The position numbers and the translations under genes were made by a program. DNA of 64,000 nt from Eubacteriales bacterium mix99 (lineage in GTDB: Bacteria; Bacillota; Clostridia; Caldicoprobacterales; DTU083), in the NCBI GenBank assembly GCA_038396605.1, contig CP121690.1:2202500-2266499 (forward strand), in the 5' to 3' direction. Below are positions 33,382-45,775 of the stretch, piece by piece (the stretch's first letter is position 1; every line of letters begins with the position of its first letter). Below the pieces are notes generated by a model. It saw nothing but the letters and a program-made list of their open reading frames with translations, had not been told where the DNA came from and did no database searches.

Positions 33382-33724
33382 AATTAGTTTACCACACGGT
33401 TTGGTCATATAGTATACCTGTAAAGTGCAGCTTCGGCTTTTTATACTTTCACTTTACAGAAAAGTCATATTATATGGATAGGTATAATATATATAATCAA
33501 ATTACGGTTCTTCCCCGGATAGTCCATAGGGCGAGGACGGGCACAGGGGAAGGCAAAAGCGATATCACGCAGGACAGTGGAAATTTGGGAACGCAGGTTT
33601 CGGATCGGATTGTTTCAAAAAAGTAAGGGCAGAGGTTTTAGGCAATGCAATCCTGCATTGCCTTAACAATATATATATAAAAGCATTCGGAGATACCGAA
33701 ATGCGGATAAGGGAGGAATATTTT
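33382..33724 (+). other. Long structured 5' leader of the peptide importer operon
   Basis: No gene seen. Structures: CTGTAAAGTG (33418-33427) with CACTTTACAG (33450-33459), a perfect 10-bp stem; TTCCCC/GGGGAA (33511-33516 with 33546-33551) enclosing GTCC/GGAC (33522-33525 with 33535-33538); two direct ACGCAGG copies (near 33570 and 33591); and AGGCAATGCA/TGCATTGCCT with a 4-base loop (near 33642-33665) just before the binding site. The last hairpin lacks a T run. It does not match the ykkC, c-di-GMP, cobalamin, lysine, SAM, glycine or c-di-AMP consensus as I know them. Confidence 0.5.
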
Positions 33725-35638
33725 ATGAAGAGAAGACTGGTATCCATTCTTCTGGTTGTATTTCTGCTGCTTTTGGCAGGATGCGGGAGGGGCAGTGAGA
33801 CCGGTGTGGTGGAGAAGTCCGCCAAGCCAACAAAGGCATCGGATCAGGCGGACGATAAGGCGAAGGACAAAGACGAAGGGGAAAAGGCAGAAAATCAGAT
33901 TGTCGTGGGGAATACCACGGAAATGTCCGGTGACTGGATTCCCTATTGGCAGAACAACGCAGCAGACAAGGATGTTTATGAGATGATTACCGGTCAGGGT
34001 TTGGTGGAGACCACCAAGGACGGGAAGTTTGTCATCAATGATACGGTTGTGAAAGATCATGAGATCAAGGAAAACGAAGATGGATCCAAAACTTATGTCT
34101 GGACCATCAACGATGGCCTAGTATATGACGACGGATCCCCTATCAACGCGAAGGATTATGTGACGTCTTACCTGTTCTGGTCTTCTCCTCAGGTCGGGGA
34201 CGCCGGCGCAGAGAACTCCTATGGATATTATCTGAAAGGATGGAAAGAGTTTTCCGGTGGAGAATCCAAGGTGTTTTCCGGTGTCCGGCTCACCGGTGAG
34301 AAAACCTTTGAAGTCACCCTCTCCGCAGACGAGCTTCCTTACTTCTATGAGCTGGATGCAGTGGCCGCCAAACCGACGAAGCTGTCCTTCTGGACAGACG
34401 ATCAGGTGGACATCAAGGACGACGGCGAAGGATGCTACTTTACCGACAACTTTACAACGGATGCCTATAAGGAGAAATTCAATCAGGCGAGAAGGGCGAT
34501 CCCCCGTCCTTCCAGCGGAGCTTATGTTCTGAAAAGCTATGATGAATCCTCCAAGACAGCGGTGCTGGAAATCAATGATAAATATCCTGGAAACCGTGAA
34601 GGGCAGAAGCCTTCCATTCAAAAAGTCATTATGAAGAAAGTAAATCAGGATACCCAATTTGATGAGCTGTCCACCCACGCTGTAGATCTGTTGTTCCAGG
34701 CGGCAAGCGGGGACGATATCAATGCCGGGCTGGATCTGGTGCAAAAAGGCGGATTTGCTTATACGAAGTATCCCCGTTCCGGCTATGGCATGATTCAGTT
34801 TTCCTGCGATTTTGGTCCAACCCAGTTTGTGGAGGTTCGTCAGGCTCTTGCACACCTGCTGGATCGGAATGATTTTGCCAATTCCTTTACCGGCGGCTTT
34901 GGCTCTGTGGTAAATGGCCCTTATGGGGAGTCCATGTGGTTTTACCAGGAGACCAAGGCGGAGCTGAACGAAAAGCTGGATCAATACGCCTATAGCCTGG
35001 ATAAGGCAAAGGAGCTTCTGGAGAAAGGCGGATGGATCTATGATGAAAAAGGCAATAAATATCAGTCCGGCACCCGCTACAAGAAGATGGACGACGGAAG
35101 CCTTATGCCTCTGGTCATTAATTGGGCTTCTTCCGAGAAAAATGATGTTTCCGAGATGCTGGTGGTAAAACTGATGAAAAATCCGGATGTGGCTGCGGCA
35201 GGAATGGAAATCCATCAGACCGTGATGACCTTCCCGGAGCTGCTGAACTGGCTTTACCGGGACGGTTCGGAGGATGCAAAATATGCAGTTCCCACCTATC
35301 ATATGTTTAACCTGGCATCCGGCTTTACTCCGGCATATAATCTTATGACCCAATACACGAATGATCCCAAATTCCTGGAACAGGGCACCAATACCAACTT
35401 CATCAAGGATGAAAAGCTTGCCAGGCTGGCAAAGGACATGGTGAAGGTGGATCCGGAAGACAAGGAGACATACAAGAAGAACTTTGTGGCCTTTATTCAA
35501 AGATGGAATGAACTGATGCCGGATATTCCGCTGTACTCCAATATCTATCATGACTTCTATGCTGAGAAGCTGAAGGATTACGAAAAGAACGACTTAATGG
35601 AACTGGTGGATGCCCTGCTCTATGCCCACGTGGAATAA
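33725..35638 (+). CDS. oppA: Oligopeptide ABC transporter substrate-binding lipoprotein
   Basis: 637 residues from ATG 33725 after GGGAGGAA. The signal peptide ends in 'LLLAGC' (Cys about 20), then a charged Lys/Glu/Asp spacer (about 30-58), then an SBP_bac_5 domain starting 'NQIVVGNTTEMSGDWIPYWQ'. The domain is longer than the usual 500-550 residues. 'DEDGSKTYVWTINDGLVYDDG' and 'INAKDYVTSYLFWSSP' are typical OppA/DppA segments. It captures peptides for the permeases OppB/OppC encoded next. Its partner permease carries a large extracellular propeller, so this binding protein may dock in an unusual way. Confidence 0.9.
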   Translation: MKRRLVSILLVVFLLLLAGCGRGSETGVVEKSAKPTKASDQADDKAKDKDEGEKAENQIVVGNTTEMSGDWIPYWQNNAADKDVYEMITGQGLVETTKDGKFVINDTVVKDHEIKENEDGSKTYVWTINDGLVYDDGSPINAKDYVTSYLFWSSPQVGDAGAENSYGYYLKGWKEFSGGESKVFSGVRLTGEKTFEVTLSADELPYFYELDAVAAKPTKLSFWTDDQVDIKDDGEGCYFTDNFTTDAYKEKFNQARRAIPRPSSGAYVLKSYDESSKTAVLEINDKYPGNREGQKPSIQKVIMKKVNQDTQFDELSTHAVDLLFQAASGDDINAGLDLVQKGGFAYTKYPRSGYGMIQFSCDFGPTQFVEVRQALAHLLDRNDFANSFTGGFGSVVNGPYGESMWFYQETKAELNEKLDQYAYSLDKAKELLEKGGWIYDEKGNKYQSGTRYKKMDDGSLMPLVINWASSEKNDVSEMLVVKLMKNPDVAAAGMEIHQTVMTFPELLNWLYRDGSEDAKYAVPTYHMFNLASGFTPAYNLMTQYTNDPKFLEQGTNTNFIKDEKLARLAKDMVKVDPEDKETYKKNFVAFIQRWNELMPDIPLYSNIYHDFYAEKLKDYEKNDLMELVDALLYAHVE

Positions 35639-35789
35639 GGATAGGCAGACAGGTGTTTATCTCCCATAGTCGCTGGAAATAGGGTATTGGCATCAATACC
35701 CTATTTCCAGTATTCATTTTTCGATTGGTTTGAGCTTTTATCGGAAAGAATCGTTTCAGAATCATCGAAATAGGAGGAAGTGATTTACA

Positions 35790-36776
35790 GTGGGGAAGTA
35801 TGTTGTAAAAAGAGTCCTGTATATGATATTTGTTTTTTTTATTATGTCCTTTGTTCTGTTTTCCCTGTATAATATGATCCCGGGGGATCCGGCCCGAAGC
35901 CAGCTGGAGATGGTGAAGAGCAAGTTGGATCCGCATGAATATCAGGTCCGGTATCAAAAGCTGCGGGCGGATTTGGGACTGGATGATCCCATTCCGATTC
36001 GATATGGAAAATGGATGGGCAGTATTCTGCAGGGAGACTTCGGAAAATCCTTTATTTATCGGCGCCCGGTACTGGATGTGGTGAAGCAGCCGCTGAAGAA
36101 CACCATATTCATCAATGTGTTTTCTGTCATTCTCGCATTGGCCATTACCATTCCTTTGGGAATTCACTGTGCAGTGAAACGGAATTCCCTGTTTGATAAG
36201 GTCGTACAGGTTCTGACCATCGTCGGATACAGTATTCCGGTCTTTATCATCAGCCTTTTGTTCATCTTCCTGTTTGCCGTCGTTCTGCATTGGTTCCCGG
36301 TAAGTGGGATGAGCACGGCAGATTTCAAGGGTACGCCGGTTCGGTTGTTTCTGGACAGGCTGTGGCATCTGGTATTGCCCCTGGCGGTGATGACCGTCGG
36401 CTCATTGGGAGGGATGACAAGGTATGTCCGCGCTGCCATGTCGGATGCCCTGAGCATGGATTACATCAAGACGGCAAGGGCCAAGGGCCTGAAGGAGAAG
36501 GTCGTCATTTATTCCCATGCATGGAGGAATGCCCTGCTCCCCGTTATCACATTGATTATCGGATGGTTTCTCAGTATTTTTTCCGGTTCCCTGGTGGTGG
36601 AAACCATGTTCAACTGGAACGGGATGGGAAAGTTCTATATGGATTCCCTGAACAATCAGGATTATAATGTGGCGCTGGCCATTCAGATGTTTTATATTGT
36701 TGTTTCACTTGTGGGCTATCTGATCACGGACCTGAGCTACGGATTGGTTGATCCAAGGGTCCGGGTGAATCAGTAA
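35790..36776 (+). CDS. oppB: Oligopeptide ABC transporter permease OppB
   Basis: 328 residues, about six membrane helices. The N terminus 'KYVVKRVLYMIFVFFIMSF' is typical of OppB/DppB, as are 'LGLDDPIPIRYGKWMGSILQGDFGKSF' spread over the first extracellular loop (about 60-90) and the EAA loop 'YIKTARAKGLKEKVVIYSHAWRNALLP' (about 230-255). Translation starts at GTG 35790 after TAGGAGG. Unlike its partner OppC it has no insertion and is of normal length. The next gene starts 17 bases downstream. Confidence 0.95.
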   Translation: MGKYVVKRVLYMIFVFFIMSFVLFSLYNMIPGDPARSQLEMVKSKLDPHEYQVRYQKLRADLGLDDPIPIRYGKWMGSILQGDFGKSFIYRRPVLDVVKQPLKNTIFINVFSVILALAITIPLGIHCAVKRNSLFDKVVQVLTIVGYSIPVFIISLLFIFLFAVVLHWFPVSGMSTADFKGTPVRLFLDRLWHLVLPLAVMTVGSLGGMTRYVRAAMSDALSMDYIKTARAKGLKEKVVIYSHAWRNALLPVITLIIGWFLSIFSGSLVVETMFNWNGMGKFYMDSLNNQDYNVALAIQMFYIVVSLVGYLITDLSYGLVDPRVRVNQ

Positions 36777-36792
36777 TGGGAGGTATTGCAAA

Positions 36793-38628
36793 ATGAGCAT
36801 AAATGTAAATGGTGAAACGAGAAAGAAAAAGCCCGGTTTCCTGCGCCTCCTGTTTGCAAAACTGTTTCAGGGGAAAAAGAAAATGTCCATATTGGAAGAG
36901 GAGCAGCTGCAAAGCCCGTTTCGAACGGTTCTCAACAACTTTCGGGACAATAAGGTTTCCATGTCCGCGCTGATTGTTTTTTTAATGATCTTTGTTGTTG
37001 CTCTGGTTGTTCCCTATTTTCTTCCCCTGGATTTGTCCTATTCGGACACCAGTCAGCAAAATCTGCCTCCCGGCAGGAACATGATGAGTTATCCGAGAGG
37101 CTCGAATGGAAAGGTATCAGTGATATCCACCGGCCCCTCCTTTTCGGTTGGGGCGTCTACGGATGGCAAGCTGTTTATCTGGGGGAAAACCGGGATCACC
37201 AGTAAAATTGATGTAAAATATGTTCCGGCCAACATGGGAAAGATTGTAGACCTTGTTGCCGGATACGATCATATTCTGGCGTTGAACGATCAGGGAAAGC
37301 TTTTTGCCTGGGGCAATGGCAGGCAGGGGCAAACACAGATTCCACCCGACGTGGAGCAGCTGGACGACATCCGGGAAATCAAGGCAGGGAATCAAAGCTC
37401 TGTGGTATTGTCCGAAGATGGAACCAGTTACTTTTTTGGAAATGACATGAATAATGACTACAATGCCTTTCACCCATATCAGGGTCAGCTGGCTCAGGTG
37501 GAGCTGACCTCCGATGCTGTTCTGGGGAGGACGACGGATGGGAAGGCCGTGTATCTGGGCTCCATGAAAAACGGATATTCCGAAATCCCGAAGAATATGG
37601 GCAATGTTACGGATATTGCCGCCACTTCTTCCACCATGGCTGCAGTCAACGATCAGGGGGAAGTGTTTGTATGGGGCAACATTTCGCAGAAGTGGAAGGA
37701 AAACCAGGTCCCGAAAACAAAAAGCAGGATTGTCGCCCTGCAGGGCGGTAAAAATCATTACACCGCCGTTACTGAAGACGGGGAAGTGGTTGCCTGGGGA
37801 GCGGATCAGTACCATCAGGCAACGGTGCCGAAATCCCTTCAGGGAACAAAGGTATCCGCGGTTTATACCGGATTCTTTCAAAATTATGCCATTACCAAAG
37901 ACGGCAGCATCAAAACCTGGGGATTGAAGGGGTACCCGCTTGGTTCCGATGAAATGGGAAGGGATATCCTTACAAGATTGGTGAACGGCGGGCGCATGTC
38001 CATCATGGTAGGCGGTGTGGCGGTTATCATTTCCACCATTATCGGCGTTCTTATCGGGAGTATATCCGGCTATTTTGGAGGAAAGATCGATACTGTCCTG
38101 CAGCGGATCACAGAGATGATCGTTTCGCTGCCGTTCCTGCCCTTTGTCATGATACTGTCCGCATTGATCGGGAACTCCATGGGTTCCAATCAAAAGGTGT
38201 GGCTCATTATGGTGATACTGGGTTTTTTGTCCTGGCCCAATCTGGCCCGGCTGGTGCGCGCACAGGTGCTTTCCGTGAGGGAACAGGAGTACGTAGTTGC
38301 TGCCCGGTCGGTGGGAGTGAAGAAAAGAAATATTGTATTTAAGCACATTCTTCCAAATGTCATATCCGTCATACTGGTTTCGGCAACCCTGGATTTTGCC
38401 ACCTGTATGCTCACTGAAGCAACGTTGTCCTTTCTGGGCTTTGGTGTTCCGGCACCGCAGCCGACATGGGGGAATATGTTGTATGGCGCAAACAGCAGCA
38501 TCGTGATACAGAATTATTGGTGGAGATGGGTGTTTGCCTCCATTGTGCTGGGGATATGCGTGATCTGCATAAATCTGATCGGCGATGGTTTGAGAGATGC
38601 CATTGATCCGAAATCTCAGGAAAGGTAG
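36793..38628 (+). CDS. OppC-like peptide permease with an inserted RCC1-type beta-propeller
   Basis: 611 residues, about twice the usual OppC length. Residues 1-56 are cytoplasmic and 57-78 form TM1. Residues ~105-378 form seven RCC1-like repeats, each ending near 'DGKLFIWG', 'QGKLFAWG', 'DGTSYFFG', 'DGKAVYLG', 'QGEVFVWG', 'DGEVVAWG' or 'DGSIKTWG'. The permease then resumes at once with the conserved 'YPLGSDEMGRDILTR' (381-395), the remaining helices and the EAA loop 'EYVVAARSVGVKKRNIVFKH' (about 499-518). In OppC the loop after TM1 is extracellular, so the whole propeller is predicted to sit outside the membrane. The reading frame is uninterrupted and codon use is like its neighbours. Transport function is known family knowledge; the propeller's role is unknown. 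Confidence 0.92.
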   Translation: MSINVNGETRKKKPGFLRLLFAKLFQGKKKMSILEEEQLQSPFRTVLNNFRDNKVSMSALIVFLMIFVVALVVPYFLPLDLSYSDTSQQNLPPGRNMMSYPRGSNGKVSVISTGPSFSVGASTDGKLFIWGKTGITSKIDVKYVPANMGKIVDLVAGYDHILALNDQGKLFAWGNGRQGQTQIPPDVEQLDDIREIKAGNQSSVVLSEDGTSYFFGNDMNNDYNAFHPYQGQLAQVELTSDAVLGRTTDGKAVYLGSMKNGYSEIPKNMGNVTDIAATSSTMAAVNDQGEVFVWGNISQKWKENQVPKTKSRIVALQGGKNHYTAVTEDGEVVAWGADQYHQATVPKSLQGTKVSAVYTGFFQNYAITKDGSIKTWGLKGYPLGSDEMGRDILTRLVNGGRMSIMVGGVAVIISTIIGVLIGSISGYFGGKIDTVLQRITEMIVSLPFLPFVMILSALIGNSMGSNQKVWLIMVILGFLSWPNLARLVRAQVLSVREQEYVVAARSVGVKKRNIVFKHILPNVISVILVSATLDFATCMLTEATLSFLGFGVPAPQPTWGNMLYGANSSIVIQNYWWRWVFASIVLGICVICINLIGDGLRDAIDPKSQER

Positions 38629-38640
38629 GGGGGCTGACAA

Positions 38641-39633
38641 ATGGCATTATTGGAAGTAAAGGATCTGCATACGTACTTTAAAACAAAACGTGGAACCGTA
38701 AAGGCAGTAAACGGTGTGTCCTATTCCGTGGAACCCGGCCGGACCCTGGGAATTGTCGGGGAGAGCGGCAGCGGGAAAAGCGTTTCCGCCATGAGCATAA
38801 TCAAGCTGCTGGACGGCAACGGATATATCGACAGCGGGGAAATCCTTTTTGAAGGCAGGGACCTGGTCAAGGTCCCGGTGAATCAGATGTCCGGAATTCG
38901 TGGAAATGACGTATCCGTCATATTCCAGGAACCCATGACGTCGCTGAATCCGGTGTTTACCGTGGAGAGACAGGTGGGAGAACCGTTTATGATCCATCAG
39001 GGGCTGACGAGAAAGCAGGCGTCCCAAAAGGTGATCGAGGAATTATCCCTGGTAAAAATACCAAACCCGGAAGCAGTAGCAAAACAATATCCCCATCAGC
39101 TCTCCGGGGGCATGCGGCAGAGGGTGATGATTGCCATGGCTCTGGCCTGCCGGCCCAAATTGCTGATTGCGGATGAGCCGACCACTGCACTGGACGTAAC
39201 CATACAGGCGCAGATATTGAAGCTGATGAATGAACTGAAAAGTGAAATTGACACCTCCATTCTGTTCATTACCCACGATCTGGGTGTGATCTGTGAAATG
39301 GCGGATGATGTGGCAGTGATGTATTGCGGGGAAGTGGTGGAGTATGCTTCTGCAAGAACCATTTTTTCAAAAACGCCGCACTTTTCTCACCCCTATACAG
39401 AGGGACTGATGTTTTCCATTCCGAGACTGGATATGCCGGTGGGCACCAGACTGGAAGCCATACCGGGGTCCGTACCCCATCCATTGGATCTTCCGAAAGG
39501 CTGCAAGTTTGCTCCCAGATGCAAATATGCCACCGACCGGTGCAGGGAAAAGCCGCCGGAACTGACGGAAGTTGAGCCGGGTCATACCGTACGCTGTTTC
39601 TATCCCGATATGGAGGTGAGAACCAATGGATAA
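38641..39633 (+). CDS. oppD: Oligopeptide ABC transporter ATP-binding protein OppD
   Basis: 330 residues of normal OppD layout. Walker A '[12 protein letters not shown]', Q-loop '[13 protein letters not shown]', signature '[15 protein letters not shown]', Walker B '[13 protein letters not shown]' and H-loop 'FITHDLGVI' are intact. The C-terminal oligo_HPY region carries the four-Cys cluster motif ('[14 protein letters not shown]' and 'VRCFYPD') that binds an iron-sulfur cluster in DppD-type ATPases. ATG 38641 follows the permease gene by 12 bases and the end overlaps oppF by 8 bases. Confidence 0.95.
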
Positions 39634-41197
39634 GATGAAGGAGAAGACGGATCGAAAGGTTTTACTGAGAATAGAACATCTGAAGCAGTATTTCCCGGTA
39701 AAAAAGTCCAGTGTATTTTCCGGAGAACGGTTGTATGTCCGGGCAAACGACGATATATCCCTGGATATCTATGAAGGGGAGACCCTTGGTCTGGTGGGAG
39801 AAAGCGGATGTGGGAAATCCACGCTGGGACGTTCCCTGCTTCAGCTGTATCAACAGACCGACGGCCGTACGATGTACTACGGACGGGATGTGGATGAACT
39901 GGCTCCCAAATATGTGATGCATATCCTGAGTCATCTGACCGAAGAACGCAGGAAGATGGAAGAGCAAAAGAAAAAGGCAACAGAGGCAAGGAAACATTAT
40001 GAATCTTTGCCGGATGGAAGGGAAAAGCAGGAAGCCTGGCTTGGTTACCGGAATGCCCATAAGACAGCACGGGATACCTTTCTGGATATTGTACAGCTCA
40101 TCGGTGGTTTCTTTGTGGCGGAGGATTTGTCACCGATATCGGAAATCCTGGTGAAGGAGTATCAGGAAAGCGTAGCGGTGCGCAGACGGAAGGACCGGCT
40201 CAATATGGACCGGCTGGAGCTGGCTGCGCTGGAATCCACGTTAAAGGATAAGGGAAAAAGTGAAGCGGAAATCAAAAAGGATACGGTGGACAACCGGAAA
40301 GCCATTGATCAGAAGGAAAGCAGGCTTGCGAAGGAAGAAGCCGTACTACAGGAGGTACGGAACCGGATATATAAAATGATGGAACAGTACCGGTCCCATC
40401 CGGATTTTGAGAAATACGAGGCATACCGGGACAAGGGGATCAACCTGACCAGACTGACGGAAGAGGAGATGCGAACACTCCGGAAGGACCTTCAGCTGAT
40501 CTTCCAGGACCCTTATTCTTCCCTGAATCCCAGGATGACAGTGGGGCAGATTATAACAGAAGGCCTGCTGGCTCATAAGATGTTTCACAGAAATGATAAA
40601 AAGCTGCAGGGTTATGTGATGGATACCATGGAGAAATGCGGGCTGGCTCCCTATTTCATTCATCGTTATCCCCATCAGTTTTCCGGCGGTCAGAGACAGC
40701 GTATCGGCATTGCCCGGTCCGTCGCCCTGAATCCGAAATTCATTGTATGTGATGAAGCCGTATCTGCGCTGGATGTATCCATACAATCCCAGATTATCAA
40801 CCTGCTTCTTGATCTGAAAGAGCGGCAAAATCTGACCTATCTGTTTATCTCCCATGATCTCAGCGTCATCAAGTATATCAGTGATCGGGTCGGGGTGATG
40901 TATCTGGGCAATATTGTTGAACTGGCGGAAACGAAGGAACTATATGATGCGCCCATGCATCCCTATACGGAAGCGCTGCTTTCTGCCATCCCAACCACGG
41001 ATATAGAAGATAAAAAGAAAGATGTTATTCTGGAAGGAGATATACCAAGTCCCATTCATCCCCCGGCAGGCTGTAAATTTCATACCCGATGCCGGTATGC
41101 AACAGAAATTTGCAGCAAAAGGGTACCTGAAATGAAAGAAGCAAGGCCAGGCCATTTTGTGGCGTGCCATCACCGTCTGAATCAGGGAAATGGATGA
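39626..41197 (+). CDS. oppF: OppF-like ATP-binding protein with a large helical insertion
   Basis: 523 residues; normal OppF proteins have about 310-340. Walker A 'GESGCGKST' is at about 58-66. Instead of reaching the Q-loop some 50 residues later, the chain continues through a charged, helix-rich segment (about 92-280, e.g. 'RKMEEQKKKATEARKHYE', 'DQKESRLAKEEAVLQEVRN') before 'LRKDLQLIFQDPYSSLNPRM' (Q-loop Gln about 294). Signature 'FSGGQRQRIGIAR' (352-364), Walker B 'FIVCDEAVSALDV' and the C-terminal Cys cluster are intact. Part of the insertion looks coiled-coil. Start ATG 39626 follows GGAGGTG, overlapping oppD. Confidence 0.92.
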   Translation: MDKMKEKTDRKVLLRIEHLKQYFPVKKSSVFSGERLYVRANDDISLDIYEGETLGLVGESGCGKSTLGRSLLQLYQQTDGRTMYYGRDVDELAPKYVMHILSHLTEERRKMEEQKKKATEARKHYESLPDGREKQEAWLGYRNAHKTARDTFLDIVQLIGGFFVAEDLSPISEILVKEYQESVAVRRRKDRLNMDRLELAALESTLKDKGKSEAEIKKDTVDNRKAIDQKESRLAKEEAVLQEVRNRIYKMMEQYRSHPDFEKYEAYRDKGINLTRLTEEEMRTLRKDLQLIFQDPYSSLNPRMTVGQIITEGLLAHKMFHRNDKKLQGYVMDTMEKCGLAPYFIHRYPHQFSGGQRQRIGIARSVALNPKFIVCDEAVSALDVSIQSQIINLLLDLKERQNLTYLFISHDLSVIKYISDRVGVMYLGNIVELAETKELYDAPMHPYTEALLSAIPTTDIEDKKKDVILEGDIPSPIHPPAGCKFHTRCRYATEICSKRVPEMKEARPGHFVACHHRLNQGNG

Positions 41198-41532: not shown

Positions 41533-42807
41533 TCAGCCAGGATTGGCGAAGTTCAATTTGGCGGTGGACAGCATGAGCTTGATGCGGTTCTCCTGATTGA
41601 TCCGCGTCGCACTCGGGTCATAATCGATGGCTACGATGTTGGCATTGGGATGGTTTTCCCTGATTTTACGGATCATTCCCTTTCCGACGATATGGTTTGG
41701 CAGGCAGCCAAAGGGCTGGGTGCAGACGATATTCTCCACGCCGGACGTTACCATCCCCAGCATTTCAGCTGTCAGAAGCCAGCCTTCCCCCATTTTGGCG
41801 CCGGTTGAGATATAACCGGAGACCAGGGATTTGATGTGTTCAAAGGAAGCCGGCACCCGGAAACGCTTTTGGGTCCGGACCGCTTCCCTCATCATGTTCT
41901 GCATTTTTTCCAGGAATTTTTTCAGAATAAAATTCAGGGTGGCAGCTGCTTTGTGACCGCCATACAGTTTTGCATCGGTCACTCCATTGTCGCAGCTGTA
42001 GAGGACAAAATTGAGGAGCCCCGGGATTTCCACTTCCGTGTCTTCCTTCAGAAGAAATTCCTCCAGATTATTGTTTCCCAGGGGAGAATACTGCATATAG
42101 ATTTCCCCCACGATGCCCACACGGATCTTTTTTTTATCCTGAACGGGGATAGATGCAAACTCGGCCGCAATTTGATCCATATTCTTTTTTACTTGTTTGT
42201 TGTTCAGAATGCTTTTTCCGCTGAGCTCACGGCTTAGTTTCTGAATCCATTTTTCGGTCAGCCGGTCAGCAGCCCCTGTATGAACTTCGTAGGGGCGGAC
42301 CTGATTGGAAACCAACATGAGAATGTCTCCATAAAGAACAGCATAGACCAGCTGAACCAGCATTCCCGGTGTGATCTGAAATCCGGGATTTTTTTCCATA
42401 CCATTCATATTGAAGGAAACCACTGGTATCTTTTCCAAACCGTTCTTTTTCAGGGCCTTTCGAAGCAGATAGATGTAGTTGGATGCCCGGCAGCCGCCTC
42501 CGGTTTGGGTAATAATGAGGGCGATCCGGTCAATGTCATATTTTCCGCTCTGAATGGCATCCAGCAACTGTCCAATGACCAGAAGGGCAGGATAGCAGGT
42601 ATCATTATGAACATTCTGAAGCCCTTCGTTTATAATCTGCGGATGGGTAGTGCGCAGCAATTCCATATGATAGCCGAACTTGTCCAATATATTTTTCAAA
42701 AAAGTAAAGTGAATGGGAAGCATCATCGGCATCAGGATGGTGTATTCCTCTTTCATTTCCTTTGTAAACAGCAGTCTGCCGTCTTTTGCATATTCCAGTT
42801 TACTCAT
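41533..42807 (-). CDS. 2-hydroxyacyl-CoA dehydratase-like (HgdB/DUF2229-type) protein
   Basis: 424 residues, soluble. 'LRTTHPQIINEGLQNVHNDTCYPA', 'TQTGGGCRASNYIYLL' and 'ENIVCTQPFGCLPNHIVGKG' place conserved cysteines at the positions typical of the C-terminal half of large activase-related proteins (a CoA-substrate-specific enzyme activase family). In many Clostridia this half is fused to the preceding activase to make a protein of about 1,400 residues; here it is a separate gene 49 bases downstream with its own GAGGTG site. It may bind an iron-sulfur cluster of the double-cubane type. The reaction is unknown. Confidence 0.78.
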   Translation of the reverse strand: MSKLEYAKDGRLLFTKEMKEEYTILMPMMLPIHFTFLKNILDKFGYHMELLRTTHPQIINEGLQNVHNDTCYPALLVIGQLLDAIQSGKYDIDRIALIITQTGGGCRASNYIYLLRKALKKNGLEKIPVVSFNMNGMEKNPGFQITPGMLVQLVYAVLYGDILMLVSNQVRPYEVHTGAADRLTEKWIQKLSRELSGKSILNNKQVKKNMDQIAAEFASIPVQDKKKIRVGIVGEIYMQYSPLGNNNLEEFLLKEDTEVEIPGLLNFVLYSCDNGVTDAKLYGGHKAAATLNFILKKFLEKMQNMMREAVRTQKRFRVPASFEHIKSLVSGYISTGAKMGEGWLLTAEMLGMVTSGVENIVCTQPFGCLPNHIVGKGMIRKIRENHPNANIVAIDYDPSATRINQENRIKLMLSTAKLNFANPG

Positions 42808-42856
42808 GGATTCACCTCTGACAACTCACTGTCCGGAGACAGTCTCTCTATTGTAT

Positions 42857-45775
42857 TTATAATGAAACAGCTGCAATCAGACTGCGCAGACGGATCCGGG
42901 CAGCTCCGAGATTACTGATTTCATCAATTTTGATCTGGGTATAAAGCCGGGATCCATCCTCCAGGATCCTGCGCACTTCATCGGTGGTAATGGCGTCCAG
43001 CCCGCAGCCGAAGGAAACCAGCTGCACCAGCTGCATATTGCGGTGCCGGGTTACATACTTTGCAGCGGCATACAGCCTGGAGTGATAGGTCCACTGATTC
43101 AGGACATCCATCTTTTCCTTTTCTTCCAGGTAGCTGATGGAATCCTCCGATACGACCACCAATCCCAGGGAATTGATCAGCTGATCCATGCCATGATTGA
43201 TTTCCGGATCAATGTGATACGGCCTTCCTGCCAGGACAATCACCTGGTAACCATTCTTTTCTGCGAACTCCAGCGCTTTTTTCCCGTAGGAACGAACATC
43301 TTCCTGGTAGTGGGAATATTCTGCATATGCCTTTTCGGTTGCTGCCTTTGTAATCTTTTCCGGCACTCCAAATTCCTTTTTGAAATACCGGCCGGCTTTT
43401 TTTACAAATTTTTTCGGACTTGACAACGAAAAATAAGGATTCAGGAAGTTGATCTGTTCCAAAGCGGAGATATTTGCCTTGATCAGCTCCGGGTAGTAGG
43501 CGACGACCGGGCAGTTGTAGTGATTGTCTCCTGCATGTTCATCAAAGTTATACGTCATGCATGGATAGAAAATCGTGGAAACTCCCTTCTCCAGCAGCTG
43601 TTCAATGTGTCCGTGCATCAGTTTGGCAGGGTAGCATACCGTATCGGACGGAATGGTATGCTGTCCTTTTGTATAGGTTTTACGGGTGGTGGGACCGGAA
43701 AGTACGACTTCAAATCCCATCTCCGACAGCAGGGTATGCCAGAACGGGAGATTTTCGTACATATTCAATCCCATGGGAATGCCAATCCTGCCAAGAGGCG
43801 CTTCTTTTCCGGGCTGATATTTCTTCAGACGCTCCAGCTTAAACCGATAGGCATTGGGCAGCTCGGTTTTCTTTTTCTTTCCAAGAGGCCGGTCGCACCG
43901 GTTTCCGGAAATATATCGTTCCTTTCCGCTGAAGAGATTGATGGTAAGCTTGCAGTGATTGGTACAGCCGTTGCAGGTGGCGGCCTTTGAGGTATGGGTG
44001 AATGCGGCAAGCTCCGCCGGACCCAGGACATTGGAATGTTCTCTGCCCAGATCCTTTGCATGGAGGGCGGCGCCAAAGGCTCCCATCAATCCGGCAATGG
44101 GCGGCCGGGTTACCTGCTTTCCGGTCTCCTGCTCAAAGCTGCGGAGGATGGCATCGTTCAGGAAAGTCCCTCCCTGCACTACAATATGGTTGCCCAGCTT
44201 ATCCGGAGAGGAAATACGGATCACCTTGTACAATGCATTTTTAATAATGCTCATGGCCAGGCCGGCGGAAATATCCTTTATATCCGCACCGTCTTTCTGG
44301 GCCTGTTTCACGGAGGAATTCATGAATACGGTGCAGCGCGATCCGAGATCCACCGGATGCTCTGCAAACAGGCCCAGTTTTGAAAATTCGGAAATCGAAT
44401 ATCCCAGCGCCTGGGAAAAGGTATCGATAAAGGAACCGCAGCCGGAGGAGCAGGCTTCGTTCAGCATAATGGAATCAATGGCGTTGTTTTTTATTTTCAT
44501 GCATTTGATGTCCTGTCCGCCGATATCCAGGATAAAATCCACCTGTGGATCATAGAATCGGGCGGCAAAATAATGGGCAACGGTTTCGACGATGTTTCCG
44601 TCCAGATGGAAGGCATTTCGGATCAGCTCTTCCCCATAACCGGTGGAGGCGGCAGCACGGATCCGGATCCGGTCCCCGCAGAGACGGTAAATGTTTTTCA
44701 GTTGTTCCTTTACCAGGGGAATCGGTTCCCCATAATTGGACTGATAGAAATCATACAGGATGTCACCGTCCGGTGTGATCAAAACCAGCTTGATGGTGGT
44801 GGAACCGGCATCGATGCCTAGATAGGCGTCTCCCTGCCATGTCCGGATATCAAGGTGGTCCACCCTGTCCTTGCTGTGACGGGCATAGAATGCCTGATAA
44901 TCTTCCGGGGAATCAAACAGGGGAGGGGCGCATTGGATGGCACTCCGGTTGTACTGCGCCCCGGAAAGCTGATCCATGAGCTCTTCGTAATCCATGGTGG
45001 CGGTGTTTTTACTATACAGAGCAGCGCCCAGCGCAACATAGTACTCTGCATTGTCCGGAAACAGGGCGTGTTCGTCATCCAGGGACAGGGTATCGACAAA
45101 GCGCTCCTGCAGGCCCTTTTGAAAAGTCAGGGGGCCGCCCAGAAAAGCGACTTTTCCCTTGATCTCACGTCCCTGGGCCAAACCGGCAATGGTCTGATCC
45201 ACAACGGCCTGATAGATGCTGGCAGCGATATCGGATTTATTGGCTCCCTGATTCAGCAGGGGCTGTATGTCGGATTTGGCAAAAACACCGCAGCGGGATG
45301 CGATATTGTAAATCTTTTGATGCCCGGCGCTCAGTTTGTCCAATTCCTCCAGGGATACATTCAGCAGGGAAGCCATCTGATCGATGAAGGCTCCTGTGCC
45401 GCCTGCGCAGCTGCCATTCATTCTCTCTTCAATTCCTCCGGTCAGGAAAAGGATCTTTGCGTCTTCTCCGCCCAACTCGATGACAGCATCCACGTTTTCC
45501 TGAAAGTTTTCCACGGCTATCTGGGTGGAAAAAACCTCCTGAACAAATTCCAGCCGGGCATCCCTGGACAATCCCAGTCCGGCAGATCCTGTGATGGCGA
45601 CCTTCAGACGGTTCCCTTCCAGCAGATCATCAAGACCTTTGAGAATCTGCATGGTATTTTCCCGGACCTGTGCGTAATGCCTTCCGTAATGCTTGTATAT
45701 GATATTGCTTTTTTCATCCAATACAACGACCTTGACTGTGGTGGAACCGATGTCAATCCCGATGAAGCAGTTCAT
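42857..45775 (-). CDS. Tandem BadF/BadG-type activase with DUF2229 (acyl-CoA dehydratase activase-related)
   Basis: 972 residues. Two ASKHA-fold BcrAD_BadFG domains lie in tandem: the first starts 'CFIGIDIGSTTVKVVVLDEK' and contains 'GGEDAKILFLTGGIEERMNGSC'; the second starts 'YLGIDAGSTTIKLVLITPDG' (about 320) and contains 'DIGGQDIKCMKI' and 'LNEACSSGCGSFIDTF'. The latter includes the cysteine that anchors the bridging [4Fe-4S] cluster in HgdC-type activators. A DUF2229-like region follows (about 660-970, 'GIPMGLNMYENLPFWHTLL'). Such proteins hydrolyse ATP to push an electron to a low-potential partner, probably the product of the next gene. Start ATG 45775 follows AAGGTG. Confidence 0.87.
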   Translation of the reverse strand: MNCFIGIDIGSTTVKVVVLDEKSNIIYKHYGRHYAQVRENTMQILKGLDDLLEGNRLKVAITGSAGLGLSRDARLEFVQEVFSTQIAVENFQENVDAVIELGGEDAKILFLTGGIEERMNGSCAGGTGAFIDQMASLLNVSLEELDKLSAGHQKIYNIASRCGVFAKSDIQPLLNQGANKSDIAASIYQAVVDQTIAGLAQGREIKGKVAFLGGPLTFQKGLQERFVDTLSLDDEHALFPDNAEYYVALGAALYSKNTATMDYEELMDQLSGAQYNRSAIQCAPPLFDSPEDYQAFYARHSKDRVDHLDIRTWQGDAYLGIDAGSTTIKLVLITPDGDILYDFYQSNYGEPIPLVKEQLKNIYRLCGDRIRIRAAASTGYGEELIRNAFHLDGNIVETVAHYFAARFYDPQVDFILDIGGQDIKCMKIKNNAIDSIMLNEACSSGCGSFIDTFSQALGYSISEFSKLGLFAEHPVDLGSRCTVFMNSSVKQAQKDGADIKDISAGLAMSIIKNALYKVIRISSPDKLGNHIVVQGGTFLNDAILRSFEQETGKQVTRPPIAGLMGAFGAALHAKDLGREHSNVLGPAELAAFTHTSKAATCNGCTNHCKLTINLFSGKERYISGNRCDRPLGKKKKTELPNAYRFKLERLKKYQPGKEAPLGRIGIPMGLNMYENLPFWHTLLSEMGFEVVLSGPTTRKTYTKGQHTIPSDTVCYPAKLMHGHIEQLLEKGVSTIFYPCMTYNFDEHAGDNHYNCPVVAYYPELIKANISALEQINFLNPYFSLSSPKKFVKKAGRYFKKEFGVPEKITKAATEKAYAEYSHYQEDVRSYGKKALEFAEKNGYQVIVLAGRPYHIDPEINHGMDQLINSLGLVVVSEDSISYLEEKEKMDVLNQWTYHSRLYAAAKYVTRHRNMQLVQLVSFGCGLDAITTDEVRRILEDGSRLYTQIKIDEISNLGAARIRLRSLIAAVSL

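Follow-up and report, generated by a model that had tools for sequence, protein, structure and literature searches.

The question raised by this locus, which lies in a window of 64,000 nucleotides, is whether a peptide permease with a large domain in its first extracytoplasmic loop is genuine, and what such a domain might do. Solved OppC and DppC proteins are about 290-300 amino acids long and have no globular domain in the loop between transmembrane helices 1 and 2 (TM1 and TM2), whereas the OppC encoded here has about 270 extra residues in that loop, and the OppF ATPase of the same operon also contains an insert. Comparison with related sequences suggests that the surface domain of this importer is unusual and probably functional, and that the ATPase insert is linked to it. 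The structural and evolutionary description given below is much more secure than any of the functions proposed.

The OppC gene and its predicted structure

The oppC gene (36793-38628, plus strand) starts with ATG and encodes 611 amino acids in an intact frame with no internal stop. It is preceded by a good ribosome-binding site, GGGAGGT, read directly at 36778-36784 on the same strand. A minus-strand open reading frame at 37117-38640 was set aside as a gene because domain matches run all along the opposite, plus strand, which is under purifying selection.

All features of the protein are encoded on the plus strand. Residues 1-40 (36793..36912) are a Lys/Arg-rich cytoplasmic extension with a short helix at residues 16-25. 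TM1 (residues 54-76; 36952..37020), located from Pfam and the AlphaFold model, lies inside an OppC_N domain at residues 41-93 (E 5.7e-9, 36.2 bits against a cut-off of 23.9). A linker (residues 81-107; 37033..37113), delimited from the model and from conservation, leads into a seven-bladed propeller of the RCC1/BLIP-II type (residues 108-377; 37114..37923), recognized by Pfam, AlphaFold, Foldseek and VIA-align to BLIP-II. This is followed, with no flexible linker, by a conserved junction, LKGYPLGSDEMGRD (residues 378-391; 37924..37965), and then by the permease core from TM2 onward (residues 392-608; 37966..38616), which was assigned from BPD_transp_1 and the OppC/DppC structures and has its EAA loop near residues 499-522. 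BPD_transp_1 matched residues 418-607 (E 6.4e-34, 117.7 bits against a cut-off of 26.4). In the middle of the protein, RCC1_2 matched five stretches (E 1.7e-30, 104.5 bits against a cut-off of 22), and a WD40_RLD match starting at residue 104 had an E-value of 9.2e-36, yet scored under the whole-model cut-off. The best NCBIfam match was the Opp4C equivalog NF045476, at 319.7 bits, which is below the curated 350 and leaves the protein outside that equivalog.

Each blade carries one DG..WG-type motif, seven in total: DGKLFIWG, DQGKLFAWG, DGTSYFFG, DGKAVYLG, DQGEVFVWG, DGEVVAWG, and DGSIKTWG. An overlapping motif search scores nine matches for these seven motifs. They are far above chance, since 5000 shuffles of the segment gave a mean of 0.07 and a maximum of 3, and the seven repeats that the first-pass annotation had reported from the sequence are thus upheld.

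An AlphaFold2 model of OppC, built from 47 family members (mean pLDDT 83.8), contained seven three-stranded blades at residues 108-377, mostly with pLDDT values of 90-95. The nearest solved structure to the propeller was BLIP-II, a secreted Streptomyces beta-lactamase inhibitor (Foldseek E 1.3e-19; VIA-align Z 31.4, rmsd 2.0 over 255 residues, 27% identity), which likewise has seven blades with GxxH and DG..WG repeats. Unlike BLIP-II, this propeller belongs to a membrane transporter, and the function of BLIP-II does not carry over. The rest of the chain superposed on E. coli OppC (8z21_B) with a Z of 30.2, with 277 residues aligned within model residues 39-606, so the permease fold is predicted to be intact on both sides of the propeller. 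In the model the propeller occupies the loop between TM1 and TM2. This loop is extracytoplasmic in OppC/DppC, and because the OppC topology is kept the propeller would lie outside the cell. The protein otherwise resembles the OppC/DppC subunits of known importers (E. coli OppBCDF, 8z21, and DppABCDF, 8z1y; M. tuberculosis OppABCD, 8j5s) in its OppC_N and BPD_transp_1 domains, membrane fold, EAA loop and oppABCDF operon, with the structural match extending across residues 39-606. The first-pass annotation had placed a complete seven-bladed propeller exactly between TM1 and the motif before TM2, in an extracellular loop and within intact OppC flanks and reading frame, and the model and domain matches agree with it on all of these points.

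Distribution, origin and selection

In the source genome, which is a single contig, the propeller OppC is the sole such fusion and the sole RCC1_2 match. The genome also encodes several ordinary OppC-like permeases, and a PF13540 search of it found no second RCC1 gene that could have been the donor of the propeller. Elsewhere, full-length relatives were found in six other genomes (among 60 relatives) and nearly full-length ones at 46 loci in the genome_contigs set, giving about 50 full-length relatives overall, the loci of the two searched sets being partly identical or near copies. The hosts are Tissierellia, Lachnospiraceae (including Roseburia) and Oscillospiraceae, and named hosts include Acetivibrio ethanolgignens, Soehngenia longivitae, and Merdimmobilis hominis. 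The propeller OppC was present in 13 of the 291 sampled genomes of the source's class and 13 of the 348 of its phylum. A search for plasmid spread returned no record covering 80% of the query.

In eight close pairs dN/dS was 0.03-0.16 for the propeller and 0.005-0.13 for the permease. The propeller is, judging by these ratios, under purifying selection, which is weaker than that on the permease in most pairs. An assembly artefact or a neutral fusion of two genes has a practically negligible probability given the one-contig genome, the relatives from separate assemblies and the low dN/dS of the propeller, and assembly error was ruled out on the last two grounds. The earlier proposal of a selected insertion is therefore sustained. 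The structure prediction of the whole protein and the search for long OppC homologs that had been suggested with it yielded the propeller and the clostridial relatives described above.

In a tree of the permease half, made by a quick method, all 53 RCC1-type rows fell to one side of one branch with a support of 93. Since these rows group together, a single origin fits best, in which the first extracytoplasmic loop of OppC would have received a BLIP-II-like propeller once, in the lineage that gave rise to a clostridial clade. No description of RCC1 together with OppC was found in the open-licence literature, although domain databases may list the architecture. As far as could be found, this is a conserved and apparently undescribed propeller-bearing peptide importer within an ordinary importer type, which accords with the first-pass statement that no peptide transporter of this design had been described.

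The operon, the OppF insert and possible roles of the propeller

oppC comes third in a compact oppABCDF operon, on the plus strand throughout, in which the binding protein, the partner permease and two ATPases are all present. oppA (33722..35638) encodes an SBP_bac_5 peptide-binding lipoprotein of 638 amino acids with the lipobox LLAGC. It is separated from the partner permease gene oppB (35790..36776; 328 amino acids) by a strong terminator-like hairpin of 18 pairs with a T tail (35672..35711), a usual layout in operons that must supply an excess of binding protein. Downstream of oppC are the ATPase genes oppD (38641..39633; 330 amino acids, no insert) and oppF (39626..41197; 523 amino acids), the latter with an insert between Walker A and the Q-loop. 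Past oppF, at 41533-45775 on the minus strand, are two large open reading frames, which we take to resemble 2-hydroxyacyl-CoA dehydratase activator-type proteins. In the relatives, oppA, oppB, oppD and oppF adjoin oppC in the same order as in the source wherever the flanks suffice. By gene content, the propeller OppC belongs to a complete peptide importer of the oppABCDF type, and transport is predicted. Peptide importers supply nutrients to anaerobes of the gut and of digesters, and some species use them to take in signalling peptides as well.

Conservation across the alignment was uneven. Mean top-residue frequency was 0.83 in the junction (378-391), 0.77 in the permease, and 0.52 in the propeller, and the passage from blade 7 to the permease was nearly invariant (WGLKGY-xx-GTD). 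Because the junction is better conserved than both the permease and the propeller, the propeller appears to be attached without a flexible tether on the junction side, and is probably held rigidly on the permease; so conserved a junction would be superfluous for a receptor that swings freely. In the propeller itself, the A-B turn residues H160, Q201, H322, Q363, N364 and Y365 of blades 2, 3, 6 and 7 were 89-100% conserved, versus 36-40% at the matching sites in blades 4 and 5, so one side of the propeller seems to be constrained. From the strand order of the model, we infer that the A-B turns lie on the face where the chain exits towards TM2. The usual RCC1 His is among the conserved turn residues, which counts against reading them as a dock for OppA.

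Pairwise distances among 38 operons, which are related loci, were compared by partial Mantel tests with the distances of OppB, OppD, the permease and the OppF core removed. Propeller distances correlated with those of OppA (r 0.40, p 0.0005) and also with those of the OppF insert (r 0.33, p 0.0005), in each case over and above the remaining transporter parts, whereas r between OppA and the OppF insert was only 0.16. Among the partial correlations of OppA, OppB, a subunit known to contact the binding protein in Dpp, was highest (0.48) and the propeller second (0.36). This pattern is suggestive of OppA docking on the propeller, although two fast-evolving extracytoplasmic domains of related loci can co-vary with no contact between them. 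Among the roles listed in the first-pass annotation (receiving OppA, filtering peptides, binding a surface partner or sensing a ligand), the conserved junction and the co-variation with OppA favour the first.

Our preferred reading, in which we have moderate confidence and which draws on sequence comparison and analogy, is that the propeller is a docking or coupling platform for OppA beside the entrance, like the MalF-P2 loop of the maltose importer. The propeller would be rigidly fixed to the outer face of OppC, where it would hold or orient the lipoprotein OppA above the OppC half of the entrance. OppB would keep its usual contact with OppA, and the whole arrangement may be likened to MalF-P2 holding MalE. 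MalF-P2 is also a large extracytoplasmic domain in a membrane subunit beside the entrance, and its residues 91-271 contact MalE, according to the passage of PMC3150292 that cites Daus 2009. The contact between propeller and OppA, however, is a proposal from co-variation, and MalF-P2 has another fold in another loop than this RCC1 propeller between TM1 and TM2, so it is an analogue at most. A second precedent is the TM1-TM2 region of DppB in E. coli DppABCDF, an extracytoplasmic scoop that works with the binding protein by entering the cleft of DppA (PMC12136057); unlike the propeller, which is a whole domain on the C subunit, the scoop has about 30 residues and is on the B subunit.

Alternatively, the propeller may bind peptide itself or screen passing peptides. 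Its position beside the entrance would suit such a role, as would the polar residues that are conserved in the turns of blades 2, 3, 6 and 7, but OppA and OppB have their usual domains, which makes capture by the propeller unneeded, and the nearest structure, BLIP-II, binds a protein. We consider this role very unlikely.

The lower conservation of the propeller than of the permease is also compatible with a domain that binds a variable ligand outside the cell. It is conceivable, if rather doubtful, that the propeller binds a partner such as the cell wall, a surface protease or peptidase, or another surface protein, and so brings the importer to sites of peptide release. BLIP-II and its RCC1-type relatives bind proteins, and the propeller evolves about as fast as OppA, as expected with a variable partner. 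M3/PepF-type oligopeptidase genes lie close to 10 RCC1-type operons (L042:13179-14984 and nine more loci), which may be counted for this placement and is in agreement with peptide uptake; peptidases of this type are normally cytoplasmic. As neighbours that might name a partner, only these genes and small clusters at 3-5 loci recurred. Against an outside partner, the neighbourhoods of the RCC1-type operons had no recurrent surface or secreted gene, and a short, conserved junction, not a long tether, leads to TM2.

The OppF insert comprises about 185 amino acids (approximately residues 90-275; 39893..40450, plus strand, bounds approximate) and is charged and, by its sequence, helical. Like the wider family and its second clade with other inserts, it goes beyond the first-pass annotation. 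From Walker A to the Q-loop there were 185-244 residues in every OppF measured of RCC1-type operons (about 40 loci), compared to 51-54 in a few other OppF proteins caught by the motif search, and complete OppF frames had 460-556 amino acids versus 321-412 elsewhere. OppD of the RCC1-type operons had the usual spacing. A Pfam scan of the whole OppF protein gave only weak matches for the insert, such as SMC_N, and the insert varies in length and sequence among RCC1-type operons. The insert and the propeller were found in the same 13 of 291 class genomes, at neighbouring positions. Because both come from one clade, this co-occurrence does not represent thirteen independent events, and the linkage may be mere inheritance. 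In E. coli Dpp, DppC pairs with DppF (PMC12136057), and by this pairing the propeller and the insert would be on the same half of the transporter. In the preferred reading of an OppA dock, the OppF insert may therefore be the counterpart of the propeller on the cytoplasmic side, adjusting how the ATPase is coupled to the occupancy of OppA.

Another possible role is that of a receptor or sensor (a transceptor), in which the propeller would bind an extracellular peptide or protein and signal via OppC to the OppF insert, recruiting a cytoplasmic partner or gating the ATPase. Such a role would draw on the co-occurrence in 13 of 13 genomes, on the correlation between propeller and insert, and on the conserved cytoplasmic N-terminus of OppC, where F25 was invariant in the alignment of 47 sequences. 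MalF-P2, moreover, is reported to relay substrate availability to MalK (Grote 2009, cited in PMC3328499). However, the neighbourhood comparison found no regulator or signalling gene consistently adjoining the RCC1-type operons, and the insert is variable, and we regard a sensor as unlikely. Recruitment of the binding protein by a membrane subunit is, to our knowledge, settled for few importers. An OppC propeller that always occurs with an OppF insert offers a naturally occurring case where deleting a single domain might separate docking, selectivity and control of the ATPase from one another.

Other inserts in the first loop of OppC

Relatives of the permease half included a second group of OppC proteins, 440-656 amino acids long, with inserts other than RCC1 in the same loop and in opp operons. 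L140 and its relatives (14 rows) have repeated alpha/beta units there; L017 (745-2220) has PQQ/BamB-like repeats at residues 76-235 (PF13360, 1.8e-8); and L016 and L136 have inserts of about 110 residues. Unlike the propeller proteins, these branch separately in the tree, where a single short row (L129) falls among them, and the OppF proteins of their operons are of ordinary length, lacking the long insert. Since this clade branches apart, the first loop of OppC appears to have gained domains at least two times. Large inserts are nevertheless the exception, because most of the Opp4C-like open frames listed from the phylum-wide sample have about 290-340 amino acids. The TM1-TM2 loop of OppC thus seems able to accommodate entire domains, a possible reason for other OppC annotations of unusual length. 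As a tentative possibility, the loop may serve as an insertion site that took up a recognition domain on two or more occasions, a different one each time, with the propeller and the OppF insert acting as a two-sided control that couples outside binding to the ATPase.

The alpha/beta-repeat loci are L140:5722-7554, L137, L138, L141-L151 and L018, and their insert has no Pfam match. A model of the L140 OppC contained four helix-plus-strands units (pLDDT 80.8, pTM 0.52), and whole-chain searches with it in Foldseek and VIA-align gave convincing matches to ABC permeases only. In place of the N-terminus of the propeller OppC, proteins of the second clade have another conserved motif, LDDxxRVKxLSP. 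Two further OppC proteins (L135:4183-5607 and L139:6384-7802) begin with some 180 residues that form an additional, membrane-like domain ahead of the usual OppC start.
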